DNA of 64,000 nt, from assembly GCA_019054805.1 (NCBI GenBank), contig JAHQIY010000008.1:4697501-4761500 (forward strand). Reading direction: 5' to 3'. Positions 2,001 through 48,233 of this stretch are shown piece after piece. The notes under the pieces were generated by a model that was not told where the DNA came from, ran no database searches, and saw only the letters and a program-made list of their open reading frames with translations. The position numbers and the translations under genes are program-made. The stretch comes from Brachionus manjavacas (taxonomy: Eukaryota; Rotifera; Eurotatoria; Ploima; Brachionidae). Each line of letters begins with the position of its first letter. The stretch's first letter is position 1.

Positions 2001-2987
2001 ACCTCTTTTAATTTTGAGCTATAAGAAAGCTCTGGCTTTCGTATTTTTCCTAAACCTTTTAGAATTGTCTGTTCTACAAAAATCGATCTCTTTGGCTCCT
2101 TTTGCGATTTCATTCAATCCATATCTATCAAAATATATGTGCCAGTTCGATCCATTCCATCATTACAATTAACCATTATCGGACACGTTTTGCTAGAGTA
2201 CGATTTATCCACTATCTTCCTAAAGTCCAAAAACTACTTTAACGTTAAAATGACTTTAAAATTAATAAAACGTTTTAAAAATACCTTCAACTTTTTCAAA
2301 AAAAAAATGGATATTTAATAATCTAATTTTTAAGCAAAAAAAGAGCTTAAATTTTTAATTTTTTTACTCTTTAATAGGCAAAATCGAAACATGTTAAAAA
2401 AATGTCTAAATTGCACTTTGATACCCAGTACCTTTGAATGGTAAGCAAGTTCAATTGTATTCCTAATGAGAGCTTATTTTTAATACTTCACAATTAAAAA
2501 TGAAAAAATAAACTTTTATTTAGAAAATTTATTAACAATGTGAAAATTTTAATCTAGTATTTGTTTGAAATATGAGTATAGGTATGAGTAATTCGAGTAT
2601 TTGTAAAAATACTAGTAAAAACTAGAGTTTTTAAACTTTTAAAATACACTTTGTATTAAATAAGAGTACGACATCCTTTTTTATACTCGTCCTTTTTTTA
2701 ATTATTTTCAAATTTATTCACATTAAATCATCACCAATGTCAAATTAACAATAATTCAAATTTTTTTAATTATATTTTTTATTTAATACTTAATTGAATT
2801 GATCAATTATTACTCACAAGAGATGAAAAAAAATCAGCAAAAAAAAAAGAAGAAATTAGTTGTTTTTTTGTTGCCTGTAGAACAAAAATAATCAAAATTT
2901 AAAAGAAAATTTTAACAAAAATTACAAGATTTATATTTTTAAAATAATAAACTATTTTGTTTTGAAACAAAAAATATTTTTTTTTAT
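2001..2987. other. Intergenic, no gene seen
   Basis: A+T-rich sequence between the LINE remnant and the 3' end of Acinus. I see homopolymer runs and short tandem-like phrases (several GAGTA words around 2574-2640) but no coding exon. The Acinus poly(A) signal (AATAAA on the minus strand) overlaps its stop codon near 2983-2990. Confidence 0.6.
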
Positions 2988-5757
2988 TTATTTTCTTTGT
3001 CTTTTGCCATTTTTGTCCGGTGATCGTGATCTTGACGATGACGAAGATCTGGACGAACTGGACGATCTTGAGGACGAACTCGATCTAGACGAACTTGAGC
3101 CTGAGCTTGACGATCGACTGGACGATCCAGACGAGGATCTTGTTCTCGATCGTCCGCCTCTCCGTCTAGATCTCGATCGTCTTGGAGCTGCCCGGGCATA
3201 ATCACTGGCCCGATATCTGTCTGCGTAATAGTCACGACCCCTGTATCGGTCGCTTTCGTATCGAGGCGGTGTTCGTCTCCTATACGGCTCATATCGATCA
3301 TAGCGATATCTGCCCACATCTGTTCTACGCTGATCGTTTCTATCCCTTTCTCTAGCGCGATCTCTCTCTCTGCTTTTCTCTCTGCTTTTCTCCCTGCTTT
3401 TCTCCCTGCTTTTCTCTTTACTCTTTTCTCTACTCTTCTCTTTCAATCTCTCTTTACTTTTCTCTCGGTCATTGTCTTTGTCTTTGTCTTTGTTAGTTCG
3501 CTCAACAGTCTCTTTTTTCTCTTCGACTCGCTTGTTCTCCGGTTCTGCGTTCTCTTTGACACTGCGCTCTTTGGCCCTCTCCTCTTCTTTAGCTTTGCGC
3601 TCTTTTTCCTCTTTCTCCAAACGCTCCAGCCTTTCCTTTTCCCTTTGAACTTTTTCAGCCTCTTCTCTTTGACGCCGCTCTTCGGCTCGTTTCTCTCGCT
3701 CCATTTGTCTTCTATCGTTTTCGCGCTGTCTTTCGACATACTGATCCTCGTTCAACGGCAACCAGTAGATGAACGGCGTAGTCGTTGTCTTTCGGAATAG
3801 ATCGTCAAATGTTTTAACGGGCTCTTTTTCTTCTTTGTTCTCTTTTTTCTCTTCGCTATTTTCCACTTGTCGTCGATCACGTGATCTCGACCGCTGTCTA
3901 AGCTTGGGCAAGTCCCATTCTCTTATTTTTTCACTTTTGTTTTTCGGCTCTTTTTCCCTTTCTTTTTCTCTCTCCTTTTCTCGTTCTTTTCCTTTTTCCT
4001 TCTCCCTTTCTTTCTCTCTTTCTTTTTCTCTAGTCTTGGCCTCTTTGTTCTCTTTGTTCTCCGAGTCTTTGTGTTTGTTTGGCAGAGTGGGTGCACCGTT
4101 CATGTTTGCCATCAGTTCATCCAGAGTGGCGTACTGGCACACTAGGTTTTTTGGGTTAGACGACGGCCATTTGATGTTGTGCAGATTTTTTTTGGCCGAT
4201 TTGGCGTCTTCCTTGGTCTCATATTCAACATAACAGTGGGATTTGACAGAGTTAATCCAAAAGTGTTGTTCATTTATCTTTCCGTATTTGCCCAGCAGCT
4301 CTTTTAGCTGATTTAAAGTGAAAGGCCGAGTCAAATTGGACACATGAAGAACATTAGTGACTTTTTCATCCATTTGAGTCGAATCACTTTTTGCTTCTTG
4401 GCTCTTGGTCTCGTCTCTACTAGGCGACAACTCTTGAACACTTTCTTCAAAGTCCAGCTCATTTTCAGGCTCCTATTAGAAAAAATTCCTATTAAAAAAT
4501 CTGTTTTTTTCTTCAATTTTTTTTTAATTACAATAATTACTGTGCGCGTAATCAGCGGCGTTTGTTCTTTGTTCAAATTTTCAATTGGCGATTTGTCCAA
4601 ATTGTCCAAAGGATTTGATTGCAGATAACTCTTGAGCGTGTCACTTGATATAGTGAGAGATTTTTTAGCTGAAAGAAACGAGCTTGCTTCATTAGACAGC
4701 CATTTTCGCTTCCGATGAGAACCATTTGTCTTTTCATCCTCTTTTTTTTCCTCAATCGACTTTTCTTCTTCTACTTTAGCCTCATGTTCCTCTGTCGACT
4801 CATCAGCTATTAAAACCTCTTTAACTTCTTCTGGTTTATCAACCACCTCATTTTCAGCCTCATTCTTACTTTCCTCCGCCATAGAAACCTCTTTAACTTC
4901 TTCTGGTTTATCAACCACTTCATTTTCAGCCTCATTCTTACTTTCCTCTGCCATAGAAACCTCTTTAACTTCTTCTGGTTTATCAACCACCTCATTTTCA
5001 GCCTCATTCTTACTTTCCTCCGCCATAGAAACCTCTTTAACTTCTTCTGGTTTATCAACCACTTCATTTTCAGCCTCATTCTTACTTTCCTCCGCCATAG
5101 AAACCTCTTTAACTTCTTCTGGTTTATCAACCACTTCATTTTCAGCCTCATTCTTGCTTTCCTCCGCCATAGAAACCTCTTTTGTTTGCTCTGGATGGTT
5201 ATCTTTATTCTCTTTTCTGTTTTCTTGACTCTCATGGTCTTTGAGGTCTTCATTTATTTTCTCCGGGCTGGATAGCTCTTGTTCTTTTGTTAAGTTGTCA
5301 TCGCTGGACTGATTAACAGCTGTGTTTGACTCGATGGAGTCTCGAGTTTGGCTCGAGCTATCGGCTGGTATGTGGGGCTCCTCGACTGGCTCAGCTTCTT
5401 TGACGTGTTCGTCTTTTGGTTCGCTGAAAGAGCCGTTTCTTAGACCGGCCCGTTTCCTCGGTGATTTTTGAGGTGATTTTTGGCTTGTCTTCACCGACTC
5501 TTCTTCGGTCTCTTGGTCTGTTTTGGGCTCTTCGTTTTGCTCAGTCAAATGCTATACAAATTAGAAGATAACTTTTTATTAAAAAAGAAAGCAAAATTTT
5601 TATTAAAAAATACAATTTTTAATTTTTCGAATAGCTCTTGCTTGTTGCCAGAAGTTGAAATCCCTCTCTTTTTCAATTCGGATTTCAACTCGGTTACTTT
5701 TAAGTCGGCTATGTCGACCATTTTAGAATTTATCTTCACTTTGAGTGCATCCGACAT
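2988..5757 (-). CDS. ACIN1: Acinus (ASAP/exon-junction splicing factor)
   Basis: Three coding exons on the minus strand: 5757-5614, 5551-4541 and 4472-2988, all phase 0, giving about 879 aa. Residues ~13-47 form a SAP DNA-binding domain. Residues ~423-502 form the Acinus-type RRM (V.NVLHVSNL..PFTL.QLKELL). Residues ~606-625 match the RSB motif (DDLFRKT....IYWLPL), which in known Acinus proteins binds RNPS1 and SAP18 to form the ASAP complex on spliced mRNA. Long charged K/E/R tracts and an RS-rich tail ending KRQRK follow. Exon 2 encodes five tandem 24-aa acidic repeats. The order SAP-RRM-RSB-RS and overall build match animal Acinus, so identity is firm. The start ATG at 5757 leads straight into the SAP domain. 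Confidence 0.93.
4806..5190 (-). repeat. 72-bp coding minisatellite in Acinus exon 2
   Basis: Five head-to-tail copies of a 72-bp unit encode EVSMAEESKNEAENEVVDKP plus EEVK. Copies differ at only a few third positions (for example CCG/CTG-type changes near 4877, 4949 and 5021). Because 72 is a multiple of 3, unit gain or loss keeps the frame. The unit adds acidic, probably disordered sequence between the SAP domain and the RRM. Confidence 0.92.
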
Positions 5758-14580: not shown

Positions 14581-16425
14581 AAAATCACCATTAATAATAT
14601 GTTTTTTTTTTTAATATATTATTAATGGTGACATTTTTAATTTTTCTGAAAACATTTTTCTATATGAGAGAGATATCTTATAAGAAAGATAAGTCTAAGT
14701 TTTGGAAATTCATAAATAAACAGAAAAAACGAGAACTAATGATAGTGGTATCTCATTATCCATTGATTCTGTTTTTGAAAATTTTAAAAATATTTTTAGT
14801 GAAACTATCTCCTTTGACAGTGAGCAGAGATTAATTAAATCCAAAGTTTACGAGACTTTAAATGGGTTTAAGCCAGGGGACTTTATTCCTGAGTTTGACT
14901 TAGATACATTGGAGAAGGTAATAAGTGAGAGTAAAAACTCAACTGTTAAAGGGTATGACCAAATGTCCTACTCACTGTTAAAAAACTCTACTTCGTTAGA
15001 ATTTAAAATAGTTGTCCTTGAATTCTTCAACCAAATTTTAAGATTTCACTCTGTTCCTGATGACCTAAATATTGCCAAAATCACCCCAATCCTAAAGGAC
15101 CAAACAAAGTATCACAATGACTTAGGTAACATTAGACCTATCTCAGTGCCCAATTGTTTAGCTCAAATTTTTGAAAAATTGATACTTCATTCATCTCCGG
15201 GTCTGCGTAAAACAAGTATTAATCAATTCGGTTTTAAGAGAAAAACTTCTTGCAATCATGCAATATTTGTCTTAAAAGAAGCAATTCTAAAGTATAAAAA
15301 AAACAACTCAGGATGTAAGCTTGCATCCTTGGATGCAGAAAAAGCCTTCGATAAAGTTTGGAGGGATGGGCTATTTTACAAGCTTATACCAAGGATGGAC
15401 ATAAATTTTTGAATTGTATTAAAAAAATACTACGACAAATCTATAGGGGTAGTTTGAATGAATGAAATAAGAAAGTCAAATTTATTTAAAATAAATTGTG
15501 GGGTAAAGCAAGGTGGAGTTATATTCCGTTTTTATTTAATGTTTTTATTGATTATCTAATAGAAGAATGTCTATCAAAAAATATCGGCGTATTATACAAT
15601 AATATGAATACAAGTATTATTGTTTATGCTGATGATATACTTTTAACTACTTAGCCCAGTAGACTCTAGTCTTCAGGAGCTTTTAGATATTTGTTCAAAA
15701 TATGGAAACAAATTGAAAATAAAATTTAACCCTAAAAAGTCATCAATAATTGAGTTTGGTCCGCAATTATTTAAAAATACTTTTTATCTTGGAAAAAATA
15801 TCTTGGACAAAGTAAATAAAATTAAATATCTAGGAGTAGAAATACCAAATAACTTTGACTATCATAATATTGCAGTAAATAAATTTATTAAAGTACAACA
15901 CGACTTGTTTTCTCTCTCATATTTGGGGTTAAAAAAAAGGGAAATTTCTCCATTTTTAATATATAATAGATAATATATAATGGAGATAAATAAATCAACT
16001 TTAAGAACAAAACCTCTTAATAAAACAAGGTTAGTAATTACACACTGGAATTGTCTTCATTTACCTAGTAGGGTTCATCTCTTAGCCAATTTTTTAGCTC
16101 AAAAATGTCCCGACATTGTTTTGCTCAATGAACTAAAGATAGATTTAAGTGAGGCAAATATTTATCTTGATTTTCAAATCTATCAATTCATAACAAAACC
16201 ACGCAACAAGTATGGATGAGGAGTAGCTATTTTAATTAAAGAAGGAATTGAATTTATACAAGATTTCTCTTATGAGGAATTCAATTCCGAACTCCTTTGT
16301 ATAAAAATGAACTTAGGAAAGAATAATGAATTGTTTATATTTAGTCCTTATAATCCACCCAATGTACTTCTTAACTTTGAGCTTTTTAAAACAGTTAATA
16401 AAAAATGTAGAAACTACATTTTAGG

Positions 16426-18023
16426 GGAAGATCCTCAATTCGACAAACATATTTCGACATATAATATTTTGACAATTTTATTTCGACATAAATTAATTAG
16501 ACAAATTAAGTTTCGACAAAGTTATATTTAGACAAGAGTTGTTTTGACAAAAAAAGAGACAAAAAAAATCAATTAATCAATTAATATAAAATAAAAAGTT
16601 AATATTCTATCAATAAAGATAAATTATTTAAATACTCTACAACTTTTTCTTTGTTAAAATTATTTAAAATTGTAGTAATTTGTTCTTCCAATTTCATGTA
16701 CACCGCTTTTCTTTTATTTACTTGACCAGTACTCAGTTTGATATATACATTCTCAGTATTAGATTGCTCTAGTTTAAGACTATCTATTAAAGACAACAAA
16801 TGAGGATTTAATTTAATTGTCGGCTGTAAAGCGTTATGCCAACCTTCTAGGTTATTGTTTGTCCTTGGAAGACCTTCTTTAGTTCTTTCATAACAGTTCC
16901 AGAGTTCTAGACTGAATCGTGGAGTTTTTCGACTTGGAACTTTAGTTAACGTTTTTTAGGACCAATATAATTGTCTTCAAAAAAGGTATATACCTTTTTA
17001 AGTTCATTTGGAATTAAACTTTGAAGTTCAAAAAAAGCATCGATAACATAATCAACGGGTACAAAGGGTAGACAAGCCAACATTTTGAGTATTTGCGTAT
17101 TAAATTATCTTTTAACGACAAATCCGAATATTTGGCCGCTAAACCACTTGATTGTATGTGTCTCCAGATGGACTTTTTTATGTTAAAAAACTTTGTGTAG
17201 GTCACTTCTTGTTTGTTAGTAAATAATGCATAAATTAACGGTAAATTTTTTCCCTGTTTAATAACATTAACAGTGAATAATTGCTCGAATATCAACGGAA
17301 CAGCATCAAATGTAACATCACATAGCCAATTTCTGTGTTCACTCAAAATTTGTAGATTTTTTTCAGTGGAAAATATTAGCATTCGTTCTTTGTTATTGTA
17401 ATTTTCGTCGTACAAAAGAAACATTTCGTCTTTCGATAATCTTGTAAAATCTTCATGAAGTATGAAATTTAAATCTTGAGGCATATCATATTGTTCATAC
17501 GGGTCTATTCTTGCTCTAGAACATAATTGTCTTGCAGCATTGTAAGTTTGTAAAAGTGCGACGACTTCTTCCTCTAAATTTTTTTGGCACTCGAAAATTA
17601 TTTTGCACGGTTTTGTATCAGGTTGACTTGCTGCCATTTGTTTCTTTTCGGACTTCACTTCTTTGACTTTAGTTTTAATAGAACTTACATGTTCATGTTC
17701 CTTTATTTTTGTAACTGGTTTATTCATACCAATTGTTGACACAGAACCATTACAATTTGGGTATTCAGAACTATTACACCTCCATGTTATTTTACCAGTT
17801 GAAGCTTTACATGACAATTTGTATTCAAAATAATTATCGTCAATCAAAATGTAACTCTCTGAGCCGTCTTTTTTTTTCGAGTTGACGGAATTAAATTCAA
17901 GCTTTCAAATTGCGAGAGTAATTCATCCATTTATAAAATAAAATAAAATGTGCGAGTTTTGTCAAAATAATTGTTGTCAAATATTACTTGTCGAAATATG
18001 TTTGTCAAAATGAGGCATATTCC
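16426..18023. mobile_element. MULE transposon with FLYWCH-type transposase and 15-bp-spaced motif arrays
   Basis: The two ends are inverted repeats of about 65 bp beginning with GG; both share CGACA/TGACA words and the phrase ACAAACATATTTCGACA. The word GACA recurs at 16442, 16456, 16471, 16486, 16500, 16516, 16531, 16546 and 16558, and its complement TGTC at 17960, 17975, 17989 and 18003. The element sits inside the endonuclease of the inner LINE, splitting NYILG from GDLNART. Flanking octamers ATTTTAGG and ATTTTATA match at 6 of 8 positions and may be a decayed target duplication. Confidence 0.85.
16599..17932 (-). pseudogene. MULE transposase, FLYWCH zinc finger type, frameshifted
   Basis: Reading starts near 17932 with MDELLSQFESLN, is frameshifted near 17870, then continues DGSESYILIDDNYFEYKLSC and WRC..SEYPNC.G..ST..KEHEH, a FLYWCH-type zinc finger. 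The MULE catalytic domain follows (WLCDVTFDAVPLIFEQLF, LPLIYALFTNKQEVTYTKFF), with the first catalytic Asp kept. A second frameshift near 17080 leads to LPFVPVDYVIDAFFELQ, PRFSLELWNCYE, GLPRTNNNLEGWHNALQ and the C-terminus IDSLKLEQS to 16599. The layout matches FLYWCH-MULE transposases of invertebrates. At least two frameshifts and several stops make it non-functional. Confidence 0.85.
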
Positions 18024-25160: not shown

Positions 25161-25773
25161 ATTTTTTTTTGTAAATTTATGATTCACGTTTCTGTTCATT
25201 TTTGTATTCTAAATAAATATATATAAATAAAGAAAATAATTTATCTGAAACAAAAAAATTAGCTGCAATAAAAATTTAGAGAGTTTTTTTTTATTTGCTA
25301 GTAAGAAAAAAATTAGATAAAAAAAATTGACTAATTAAGAGAATTTGAGAAAGCTTTATAAAGTTTATATATAAAATTTTTTATATTTTATCATTCCTTC
25401 GAATATTTTCAATCGGACTTTTGACTCCTTCCATTTGGTTCTAATTTATCCAAATTGTTCAATTTTTTAGTAGAATTAGACCGAATTCTCCCCCTTTAAG
25501 CCATAATTTCACCCTTTTTCCCAAAAAAAATACCATTGACTCGTTAAATTTTTTGTTATTTTAAAATTTATTTTTATTTTTAAAATTGATAAAAATTAAA
25601 GTTTCATCATCTTTTAATGAAAATTCTTCATACAAGTTCGAAAAAGCATGAAAAAACTAAGATGTTTCAAATTTATTTTTCGATAAAAATGAATGGAAGT
25701 TACTTTTGCAATTTTATTAGATTGAAATTAAATAGATTAAATCAAATATAGGATATTTGGGTCTCCCCGGTAG
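25161..25773. other. Intergenic, nothing coding seen
   Basis: A+T-rich DNA between the SWIM fragment and the TGTTATCAA element. No exon, RNA or terminal repeat is recognised. Confidence 0.45.
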
Positions 25774-26360
25774 TGTTATCAACTGATAACATAAGGTGTT
25801 ATCAAATATTGAGCAACCGATTATGTTATCAAGGTGATAACAACTTTTGTTATCAAAAGATTTTGTTATCAGTAATTTAATATTATTTAATATTAAAAAA
25901 AAAGTGTTATCAATAGACTTATTATGTTATCAATAAAATAACTATGTTATCAAATAATTTTAAATTTATTAAAAAAGTTTCCGAGTCCAGGTCAGTATTA
26001 AATTAATCTTAAAACAAAAAATACATTTTATTTTATTTATGCTTTTTTGCCATGTAAATTTGTATTCCCCTTTCACCATTCATAAACTATAAAAACATAA
26101 ACCAAAACATAAAAATTCATTAGATTCGTTTATATCACTTTTATTAGTCGACATTTTATTCTCAATTTTAATGCTTATTTTTTTAAACTTTTAATATTTT
26201 AAATTTGCTTAGTAAATAACTATTTTTATTCAATTGTAACTTAACATTATGTCATCAAAACATATTTTGTTATCACAAATAAAAATCACAATAATTTTTT
26301 TTGTTATCAAGTGTACAAATTTGTTATCAAATACAGAATTATGTTTATTAGTTGATAACA
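25774..26360. mobile_element. Non-autonomous transposon built on a TGTTATCAA motif array
   Basis: The ends are imperfect inverted repeats (TGTTATCAACTGATAACA on the left; on the right, read inward, TGTTATCAACTAATAAACA). GTTATC occurs at 25775, 25798, 25825, 25849, 25865, 25906, 25926 and 25946, and again at 26269, 26303 and 26323, with a variant at 26251. The inverse GATAAC occurs at 25785, 25836 and 26354. The 300-bp centre has no motif copies and no ORF. Most copies point the same way at both ends, unlike the mirrored arrays of the MULEs. No clear target duplication was found, so outer limits are approximate and superfamily is open. Confidence 0.7.
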
Positions 26361-35085: not shown

Positions 35086-35959
35086 TAGGGCTGGTAGATC
35101 GGTTAAAAAAAACGGTTCTAAACCGGTTAAAATATTAATCGGTTTTAAATCAAAGCCGATTAATGTAGCCGGTTAAAATATTGAAACCGGTTTCAGACCC
35201 GATTACAATTTATAACCAAATTTAGTTACCGGTTAAAAATCCTAAGCAGTTATGAAACCGTTTCTAACCGGTTAAAAAGGAACATTAATTTCTTGAGTTA
35301 AATGTTTATATTTTTTTTTAATTAAATTTTTAAAAATTATGCAAAAAAATTCATCCTTTTTTCAATAGACTTTTTAGCAAAATTCTGATTCAAATCAAAT
35401 AAAAAGGTTTGAGAAGAATAAGATTGTCTGTCTCGAGTAATCTTTTTATGATCATTTAAATTGAAAAACAAGATATGAAAGTGAAGAATTGAAGATTTGA
35501 ATTTTATAAAATTAGTAGCAAAATTCTACTTGAGCATAAGTCCTTCAAGTGTTCCATCTGAACAAACTTCTTCGGCTGGTGGACTTTTTGTTACAAAAGA
35601 TAGATCTTCTTTAGACCCGAAAAGTGTAAAAAAATTGATTTGCCTAAATTCATGGAAACGAAAAAATTGATTGATTTTGTTTAATAACTTCGTTTAATAT
35701 TTCATGTTTAAGCTTAAAGATTTATCAATAAAGTTTTTATCTAAAATTTTTTTGAATTTTTTTATTCATCAATCCGCTTAAGACAAACTTTAACCGGTAA
35801 TGTAGCCGGTTAGAATTTATAAACCGGTTCCGTAACCGATTAAAATTTTTAACTGGTTAATGGAACTGGTTACACATCCTAACCTGTTCTAAAACCAACT
35901 AAAAATTTTTAACCGGTTACGGGACCGGTTTAAGATGTCTAACCGAGCTACCAGCCCTA
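35086..35959. mobile_element. hAT transposon remnant with perfect 8-bp target duplication
   Basis: Both ends carry TAGGGCTGGTAG (mirrored). AAAAATTG flanks it at 35078-35085 and 35960-35967, an exact 8-bp duplication as hAT elements make. Subterminal regions on both sides are filled with variants of the palindrome AACCGGTT (for example at about 35121, 35211, 35270, 35791, 35820 and 35911). The interior keeps the last codons of a transposase and the rest is deleted. Confidence 0.92.
35527..35670 (+). pseudogene. hAT transposase C-terminal dimerisation segment
   Basis: Reads YLSISPSSVPSEQTSSAGGL, then FVTKDRSSLDPKSVKKLICL and a stop soon after. S-VPSE..FS-AG--VT..R-L-P--V--L--LN is the conserved hAT C-terminal dimerisation region. 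No upstream catalytic sequence is left, so this is a fragment inside a non-autonomous element. Confidence 0.85.
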
Positions 35960-46852: not shown

Positions 46853-46970
46853 TAGTTGGGATAATTAAATTATAAAAATTTGAAAATTTTTAAGTTTCTA
46901 AAGTCTTGTACTAAATAATACTAAAAAATCAAATTTATTTTTTTATTCAAAATGGGTTAGGATTAAAATG

Positions 46971-48223
46971 GGAATATTATTTCAGCACAATCAATTTCTG
47001 ATTAGCACAATGAAACAAACTTTCAACACAATTCGATTTCTTCTAAGCACAAAAAATTATATTCAAAAAAAAAAACATCAAACACAAAAAAATTTTGCTT
47101 AAAAAATAATTCTTAAAAGAAATTTTTTTTCAACACAAAAACATTTAAATAAAAGAAATTTTAATGATATTTATTTAATAATTATTAAGTAAATTTCGAA
47201 GCTTAAAGAAAAGATATTACAAAAATTAGGATCTAGAAAACCATTTTTCCGCATTTTTTGCTCTACCTCTTTTACGTTTATTGACAAATTGGTCCTTTTT
47301 TTTAAACAGTTCTTTTAATGCCAATAAATGTGCACAATATCCTAATTTAGTGAAAAAGTTGCAAGAACATTTCTTACTTCAAAGGTTAACTTTAAAACAG
47401 TTCTTGAATAAATTTTTTAAAAATTTTCCCAACAAGCCATTTTTTTACCCAGTTAAATATTACACTTTGAAAGCTTAGGCACCACGGCAAAAATTTTTGA
47501 ATCAATTGAATAGTACTTAATTATTTCCATACTTTTAATTAAAAAAGCATAAACGCTCAATTTTCTCCTGTAAGAAAAATCACGCTTTATTGATGCATTG
47601 AAAGATTCGATAGAATGTCTTATTTGCTTTTTTTTACAATTAGGCACCACATGAAAATAGCACATCAATATGTTTTTGTTTTTTTTTTTTAAATAATTTA
47701 GGCGAAGCCTTGGCTGGTTGGAATGGAGACTTAGTCCTTCCTTTCAGCCACATGATAGATTTTTGATACCACATAATGTAAAAAAAAATAATACAATTTT
47801 TTTTGAAAAAAGTTAAATTAGTATGTTAACTGAAGGAAAAACTTCTTTAGCAGCATTATATGATGCCAGCCAAGCGTCTTGAACAATATATTCTGGCTCA
47901 AAATTATATCCAAGCTGGAACTAGGGCTTAAGGATTTGTGACTGGAATCAGTGCATGAGTTGGCGAAACTGATTTCCCTCCATTAAGAGAATATATTCAT
48001 TCAACTTTTTTTTAAAATTTTTAAGCTAATTAAAAAGCATTTTTGTGTTTAATGTTTTTTATCAAAATGATTTTCTGTGTTGAATACATTTATTTCATTT
48101 TTAATTTTTGTGCTAAAAGTATTTTTCTCAAATTTTAATTTTTGTGTTGAGAAGAAATCATTTTGTGCTGAGCGTTTTGAAATTGTGTTGAATGGTCATT
48201 TTTTGTGTTGAAAAGGTAGATCC
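46971..48223. mobile_element. MULE transposon with perfect 10-bp duplication and phased motif arrays
   Basis: GATTAAAATG occurs exactly at 46961-46970 and 48224-48233, a 10-bp target duplication typical of MULEs. The ends start GGA and are long inverted repeats. CA[AG]CACAA-type words sit at 46983, 47003, 47024 and 47045 on the left and, mirrored, at 48203, 48183, 48163 and 48142 on the right, so the spacing is 20-21 bp at both ends. More copies lie inward at wider spacing (near 47080, 47131, 48108, 48075 and 48044). The interior holds a partial transposase on the minus strand. Confidence 0.93.
47220..47920 (-). pseudogene. Partial MULE transposase with SWIM finger
   Basis: Minus-strand order: FEPEYIVQDAWLASYNAAKE (~47900-47830), CYFHVVPNCKKKQIRHSIES followed by FNASIKRDFSYRRKL (47668-47550), then KCSCNFFTKLGYCAHLLALK, a complete SWIM C-x-C..C-x-H, and VNKRKRGRAKNAEKWF to about 47225. 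These are the second half of a MULE transposase: late catalytic region, C-terminal helices and SWIM zinc finger. The FLYWCH/N-terminal half and first catalytic Asp are absent, so the copy is internally deleted and frameshifted. Confidence 0.75.
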
Positions 48224-48233
48224 GATTAAAATG

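Follow-up and report, generated by a model that had tools for sequence, protein, structure and literature searches.

Short-word arrays at about 21-bp spacing in the ends of Brachionus manjavacas MULEs: a pitch that appears to follow the transposase clade

The ends of a defective MULE copy in the rotifer Brachionus manjavacas carry four short words at steps of 20–21 bp, mirrored between the two arms, and nearly the same spacing recurs in other families of its transposase clade (clade A) with different words, while a second clade (clade B) has a different pitch of about 13–15 bp. From the comparison of families in this one genome, pitch looks like a trait of the transposase clade that is conserved better than the words themselves. 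We think it probable, though well short of certain, that clade-A ends would act as arrays on which several transposase subunits occupy words spaced about two helical turns apart.

The copy lies in a 64,000-nucleotide stretch of contig JAHQIY010000008.1 (hereafter the window), where it spans 46970..48223 on the plus strand (1254 bp), and its family, called F1 here, occurs in at least 66 distinct places in the 114-Mb genome (40 from a first search, 17 further left ends and 9 further right ends). The nematode SL1 leader was looked for, allowing up to 1 mismatch, and was not found. The boundaries of the copy were set by comparing 43 left and 42 right F1 arms (GGGAATATT... and ...GTAGACCC); the family starts with GGGAATATTATTT and ends in ...AAAAGGTAGACCC; the window copy itself begins with GGGAATATT and ends in ...GTAGATCC, where the F1 consensus has ...GTAGACCC. 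With these boundaries the target-site duplication is the 9-bp GATTAAAAT, at 46961..46969 and again at 48224..48232 (+). A reading made earlier from the sequence only had given a perfect 10-bp duplication, and this length is rejected, as what had been counted as a tenth base on the left is the G with which the element opens. In the 38 F1 copies with both ends, the 9-bp duplication is exact in 20, agrees at 8 of 9 positions in 5, and is poorer in 13, two of which are exact at 10 bp. The length of 9 bp falls in the 8–11 bp expected of MULEs, GGG opens 38 of the 43 left arms and 36 of the 42 right arms, and the arms form terminal inverted repeats that are imperfect (the longest piece is 56 nt at 75%) with the words mirrored. 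Together with the remnants of a MULE domain and a SWIM-like finger described below, these duplications and termini bear out the identification as a MULE that the sequence-only reading had made.

On the minus strand the window copy holds broken pieces of a transposase in more than one frame. These comprise a remnant homologous to the final part of the MULE domain (EPEYIVQDAWLASYNAAKEVFPSVN, approximately 47811..47902), a 71-aa piece (HSIESFNASIKRDFSYRRK..., 47453..47668), and a SWIM-like C-terminal finger remnant (KKCSCNFFTKLGYCAHLLALKELF, approximately 47304..47379) whose frame differs from that of the other two. Taken alone the 71-aa piece has no Pfam match; a genome search with it gives 50 hits (E ≤ 0.1), among them itself and other MULE families. 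Pieces of a longer F1 copy (L087, C12:1818800-1821800) match the MULE domain PF10551 at 2.3e-5 (the counterpart of 47811..47902; 25.2 bits, cut-off 27.6) and 0.029, and its piece homologous to 47304..47379 matches SWIM at E = 0.0036, all of these under the curated cut-offs; the related transposases of L058 and L077 exceed the Pfam cut-off. By eye, IDGTY and QDA stretches, candidate parts of the catalytic DDE triad, are visible in L087 in broken frames. No intact transposase was found among the F1 copies read, the most complete being L087 (2.2 kb, broken frames) and L086, in which the left end and the transposase pieces lie more than 3 kb apart. L086 (C3:5775900-5780500) is itself split by a Tc1/mariner-like transposase remnant, recognised by eye. 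The window copy is a dead MULE whose ends can still be read.

Reading inward from the left on the plus strand, the outer words of the window copy are CAGCACAA (46983..46990), TAGCACAA (47003..47010), CAACACAA (47024..47031) and AAGCACAA (47045..47052); reading inward from the right on the minus strand, they are CAACACAA (48203..48210), CAACACAA (48183..48190), CAGCACAA (48163..48170) and CAACACAA (48142..48149). All eight words listed by the sequence-only reading are present, and six of them (46983, 47024, 48142, 48163, 48183 and 48203) match CA[AG]CACAA exactly, with the second and fourth left words deviating. The steps mirror each other, at 20, 21 and 21 bp on the left and 20, 20 and 21 bp on the right, where the F1 consensus has the second word one base further in and a first step of 21 bp. 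The window contains 11 copies of CA[AG]CACAA where 3.2 are expected, 7 of them inside the element. When the two 100-bp arms were dinucleotide-shuffled 20,000 times, neither arm ever came to hold four CACAA words at successive 20–21 bp steps, and one shuffle reached three such words; both real arms hold four. The proposed outer spacing and its mirroring stand. A blind lag test (composition-weighted autocorrelation against dinucleotide shuffles, lags 9–35) puts lags 20 and 21 on top for the window arms alone at P = 0.095, which is suggestive only, and gives lag 21 for the F1 consensus at P = 0.05 as computed, or P = 0.024 for a consensus drawn by eye that differs in 2 bases.

The outer spacing is nearly invariant among the 43 left and 42 right F1 arms. 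The commonest left steps are 20 (42/43), 21 (40/43) and 21 (42/43), and the commonest right steps are 21 (33/42, with 20 in a further 6), 20 (41/42) and 21 (39/42), so that CACAA starts in the consensus at 17, 37, 58, 79 and 113 on the left and at 17, 38, 58, 79 and 113 on the right. The step after the fourth word runs from 28 to 44 bp on the left and from 25 to 36 bp on the right, so that it spreads over roughly one turn of the helix or more. Phase conservation among family members thus holds for the first three steps and fails at the fourth (25 to 44 bp overall). The fourth spacer contains long A-runs, which slip easily, and for this reason the contrast between fixed outer steps and a variable fourth step does not by itself prove selection. 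Within F1, conservation is no higher in the words than in the spacers (0.956 vs. 0.952 on the left, 0.966 vs. 0.962 on the right), as expected of copies that decay after insertion, and within-family conservation therefore shows nothing either way.

Further in, the window copy has ACACAA at 47082..47087 (+), 35 bp on from the fourth left word and variable between copies, and again 51 bp beyond that at 47133..47138 (+); the inner right words (48043..48113, minus strand) start near 48113, 48080 and 48048 reading inward, at steps of 34, 33 and 32 bp. The sequence-only reading had seen such steps of 31–35 and about 51 bp as a continuation of the helical phasing, and we reject this for the inner words on account of the drift of the fourth step among F1 arms. 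What survives of its ordered, mirrored array is the outer four words, supported by other families in which nearly the same spacing goes with other words, and not the inner ones, whose spacing drifts. The idea that the whole array, inner words included, is a single helically phased filament track accommodates the outer four words, yet is already contradicted further in by the fourth step and by the window's own inner steps of 32–35 and 51 bp, and we give it almost no credence.

The genome holds at least 150 MULE-domain matches, and a transposase tree of 32 rows (30 MULE loci, F1 and L088; midpoint rooting) places F1 in clade A (12 rows, support 95/90) alongside L088, L058, L048/L052, L049/L050, L077, L051, L060, L066 and L063. 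Clade B (15 rows, support 100/99) contains L064/L074/L075, L062, L067, L061, L069/L072, L068, L053/L054, L070/L071, L073 and L076, and five rows (L055-L057, L059, L065) lie outside both clades. L089 and L090 are absent from the tree and were put with clade A as two of the nearest matches to the transposase piece of F1 (50% and 47%).

Within clade A the words change from family to family. They are CACAA-like with other spacers in L088 and L089, CATAC in L090, AAGTCAA in L048 and L058, TTAAACA in L051, ATAG-type in L060 and TAAAGA-type in L077. The spacing is nearly the same throughout: words start at 16, 36, 57, 78 and 16, 37, 57, 78 in the two F1 arms, at 16, 37, 58, 78 in L088, at 16, 37, 57, 78 in L089, at 16, 37, 58, 79 in both arms of L090 (CATAC-type, followed in both by a step of 17), at 16, 38, 59, 80 and 16, 37, 58, 79 in L051, at 16, 38, 58 and 17, 37, 59 in L060, at 17, 38, 59, 79, 100, 120, 140 in L077, at 12, 33, 54, 75 in the right arm of L048, and at 13, 34, 55, then a step of 38, in L058. 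These patterns were picked after the arms had been seen, so the blind lag test is the fairer evidence. For L077, L088, L089 and L090 the ends were set by eye with the words already in view. L089 contains an inverted duplication that includes flank and counts as one arm, not two (a 298-bp perfect inverted repeat at 1091-1388 and 2212-2509, reaching about 119 bp past the terminus into the flank, where one arm plus flank seems to have been copied in inverted orientation).

In the lag test, used in place of a k-mer scan that required words with G/C and so missed the AT-rich 21-bp families L051 and L060, the top lag is 20 or 21 in eight of nine clade-A families. Combined over the families, z reaches 13.7 at lag 21 and does not exceed 2.6 at any other lag; at lag 21 it remains 9.0 without the near-tandem L048 and L058, and is 12.1 when restricted to the five families whose ends a duplication defines (F1, L048, L051, L058 and L060). 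Individually, F1 is borderline as given above, L051 peaks at 21 but is not significant (P = 0.42), L077 gives P = 0.92 over 95 bp and lag 20 with P = 0.004 over 150 bp, and the six remaining families have P < 0.01. L071 and L074 were left out of the test as near copies of L070 and L064, and so was L052 (lag peaks 31 and 16). Ends were not resolved in L049/L050, L055-L057, L059, L062, L066 and L069/L072. In exploratory reads with undefined ends L063 (clade A) has steps of 20 and 20, and noisy scans of flank windows give no significant lag peak in L066 (clade A) and a peak at 31 in L065 (neither clade).

L052 had been considered as a counterexample, with a transposase 97.6% identical to that of L048 (167 aa) and other ends, and was withdrawn on finding that an L048-type fragment sits inside its outer element. 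This outer element (L052 606-2511) is bounded by TTAGAGAA, is flanked by a 9-bp duplication that is perfect (AAAGATCTA), and holds a 1.2-kb L048-type MULE fragment that includes one terminus and is 98% identical over 1159 bp; we read this as one MULE that may have captured or received part of another.

Clade B behaves differently. The lag test covered five of its families with defined ends, whose peaks span 13–17: L053 (15, P = 0.015), L068 (15, P = 0.007), L064 (14), L067 (13, P = 0.11, no clear array) and L070 (17, then 15, P = 0.10); for the clade overall the peaks are at 13–15 and 28. L053, L064, L068 and L070 have their second word 15 bp past the first in each of the two arms. A noisy flank-window scan gives L061 lag peaks of 32 and 15 (P = 0.017), and exploratory reads of L073 and L076, ends undefined, show steps mostly of 14–16 bp. 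Permuting the clade labels over the ten families with duplication-defined ends gives 1 in 252, a figure that overstates independence because the two clades may differ by a single event. In families of both clades with defined ends, the first word lies 12–18 bp from the terminus and the outermost bases differ between the two ends.

Spacers among the F1, L088, L089 and L090 arms are 44–64% identical, against 30% for random letters, so the shared clade-A spacing may be partly inherited, and the clade-A families may all go back to a single array that would count as one event, not nine. The even spacing could be a fossil of an ancestral 21-bp tandem duplication whose units have drifted, with the geometry free of selection: L048 keeps near-perfect 21-bp tandem copies and L064/L074 keep 14-bp ones, some spacers look alike, such as GATTTCTTCT ahead of the fourth word in both F1 arms, and identity between spacers is above chance. 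Against it, several different words sit at nearly the same spacing, and independent duplications should give many pitches, where eight of nine clade-A families fall at 20–21 bp and the five clade-B families at 13–17 bp; a single ancestral duplication may have taken place all the same. We regard a tandem fossil as unlikely, if the most serious of the competing explanations.

The change of word between families of one genome, with a pitch that follows the transposase clade, also bears on whether the words are instead sites for a host transcription factor or architectural protein, or a promoter array. Maize Mu ends carry promoters too (PMC3310237), and the binding of transposase to the words is something we infer; a host factor seems improbable to us all the same, given also that the array is mirrored at both ends even in F1 copies of about 410–630 bp, which are too small for a transposase gene. 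Fainter still is the prospect that DNA shape matters and the words are incidental, with A-tracts every 21 bp bending the ends or placing a nucleosome. Many words do run into A-tracts (CACAAAAAAA), but none of 5 or more is present in the first and third left F1 spacers or in the outer 60 bp of the L058 arms, and what recurs is the words.

The reading that we prefer, transposase multimers on spaced words, would work as follows. Each end is compound, an asymmetric terminus of about 13 bp followed by a family-specific word about every two helical turns, with the words as putative sites for the family's own transposase. Several adjacent subunits would occupy each arm by the time the arms pair and are cut. 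The pitch would be dictated by protein–protein spacing and the word by the domain that reads the DNA, which would account for words that differ between families at a constant spacing. A broader proposal, which we hold tentatively and at somewhat less than even confidence, is that the clade-A ruler (about 21 bp, with words mostly near 16, 37, 58 and 79 bp in) has been inherited with the transposase and has outlasted the words, that clade B, part of which carries a FLYWCH finger, uses 13–15 bp, and that multimers load the ends at two turns per clade-A subunit and about 1.4 turns per clade-B subunit, new families changing the word only.

Neighbouring sites in the 21-bp clade would fall on the same face of B-DNA, which fits the suggestion of the sequence-only reading that all sites face one side; the 13–15 bp clade does not share this geometry. 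As a general requirement of MULEs same-face binding does not hold, in view of clade B and of published MULEs at about 14–16 bp (PMC3169594, PMC5225508). A link between pitch and finger type is only a lead: a FLYWCH finger is present in L053 and L071 of clade B, and was not found in L069 or the partial L064 of the same clade, nor in the clade-A transposases L058 and L077 (540 and 568 aa), nor in the F1 pieces, which lack the N-terminus. The published FLYWCH elements Tm1 (mostly 14 bp) and Muta1/Muta5 (15–16 bp) would fit such a link (PMC3169594, PMC5225508).

Short-word arrays in MULE ends are a known kind of structure. Tm1, a Mutator/Foldback element of root-knot nematodes, resembles F1 in its 9-bp duplications, asymmetric short outer motifs, inner short-repeat arrays, MULE transposase and many derivatives without an intact transposase (PMC3169594). 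Its repeat units, variable in number, measure 8–17 bp in one species and 12–21 bp in another, mostly 14, and its transposase has a FLYWCH finger (PMC3169594); F1 has steps of 20–21 bp in place of the roughly 14-bp Motif C repeats, with diverged spacers and a fixed register. The nearer match to Tm1 is the 14-bp family L064/L074/L075. Muta1, an active MULE of Aedes aegypti termed a type 2 Foldback element, and its relative Muta5 share with F1 the 8–9 bp duplications and a terminal motif followed by subterminal repeats, at a pitch of about 15–16 bp rather than 20–21 (12-bp repeats with 3–4 bp spacers in Muta1, 15-bp repeats in Muta5; PMC5225508). FLYWCH is predicted in 13 of 14 Aedes aegypti MULE families and a SWIM finger in one (PMC5225508), and the F1 pieces, without their N-terminus, show a SWIM-like end and no FLYWCH. 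Among the literature matches listed, nothing on helical phasing in MULE or foldback ends was on point, and for 21-bp repeats in MULE ends the only match was the Tm1 paper, in which 21 bp tops the range of repeat lengths (PMC3169594).

Foldback elements of Drosophila (FB) have repeats of 10, 20 and 31 bp. A literature search for these repeat lengths found nothing. F1 has repeated words in both arms, but its arms are short and imperfect with diverged spacers, unlike the long arms of Foldback elements. FB/NOF and Phantom share with F1 a MULE-type transposase and internally repetitive ends (PMC3169594, PMC3688188), and the Galileo paper describes a role of their repeats as binding sites as untested (PMC3688188). 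Galileo belongs to a different transposase superfamily, P, and its THAP domain binds to sites that recur along its long ends; like the reading proposed for F1, this places multiple sites for a transposase domain in repetitive ends, and higher-order multimers have been proposed there (PMC3688188). To call the F1 arrays an undescribed mechanism, as the sequence-only reading did, was too strong, repeated end sites and higher-order transposase multimers having already been proposed for Galileo (PMC3688188). What looks new is the cross-family comparison, in which the ruler is kept while the words change.

The nearest structure that we met is that of the bacterial MULE relative ISCth4 (IS256 family), whose N-terminal domain binds subterminal base pairs 14–25, whose two ends differ mostly within the first 14 bp, the terminus serving the catalytic domain, and which makes 8-bp duplications (PMC7780238). 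Its ends are bipartite as those of F1 appear to be, and its 14–25 site and outer differences lie where F1 has its first word and asymmetric terminus; its ends are 31 bp long with one subterminal motif, no array is mentioned in the portion of the report available, and it acts as an asymmetric dimer, not a multimer per arm (PMC7780238). The first word in F1 may therefore be the counterpart of this subterminal site, with the further words adding affinity and specificity, as argued for Galileo (PMC3688188). In maize, MURA binds a site within the Mu ends (PMC3310237).

Other arrays were seen nearby. At 16424 to about 18020 the window has GGGGAAGATCCTCAATTCGACAA followed by GACA(A/T) words at steps of about 14–16 bp on the left, and TTYGACAA at 17959, 17974, 17988 and 18002 (minus strand) on the right, which is probably a second MULE-like element resembling clade-B L073; TTYGACAA is not enriched over the whole window (14 vs. 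13.4 expected). At 25759-25960 and 26302-26360, GGGTCTCCCCGGTAG is followed by TGTTATCAA words (25774, 25797, 25824, 25848, 25905, 25925 and 25945), the first at 16 from GGG as elsewhere, with steps of 23, 27 and 24, later 20 and 20; the first three steps do not fit either the 21-bp or the 13–15 bp ruler. AACCGGTTA-type words recur at 35131-35900 with a lag of 30 bp. Within L089, a further inverted-repeat element at 2899-3655 has GGC termini, carries TCTAAATTAATAA-type words about 20 bp apart and may be flanked by a 9-bp duplication, TTTTTTTTG.

How end-site arrays are recognised and paired by MULE transposases is little understood. A ruler that is kept while the word changes would separate spacing, a matter of protein–protein contact, from reading, a matter of protein–DNA contact. 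If so, shifts of 5 bp should be harmful in the 21-bp clade and shifts of 10–11 bp tolerated, which would not be the case in the 13–15 bp clade, and pitch may offer a simple trait by which short non-coding MULE copies can be sorted to their transposase clade.
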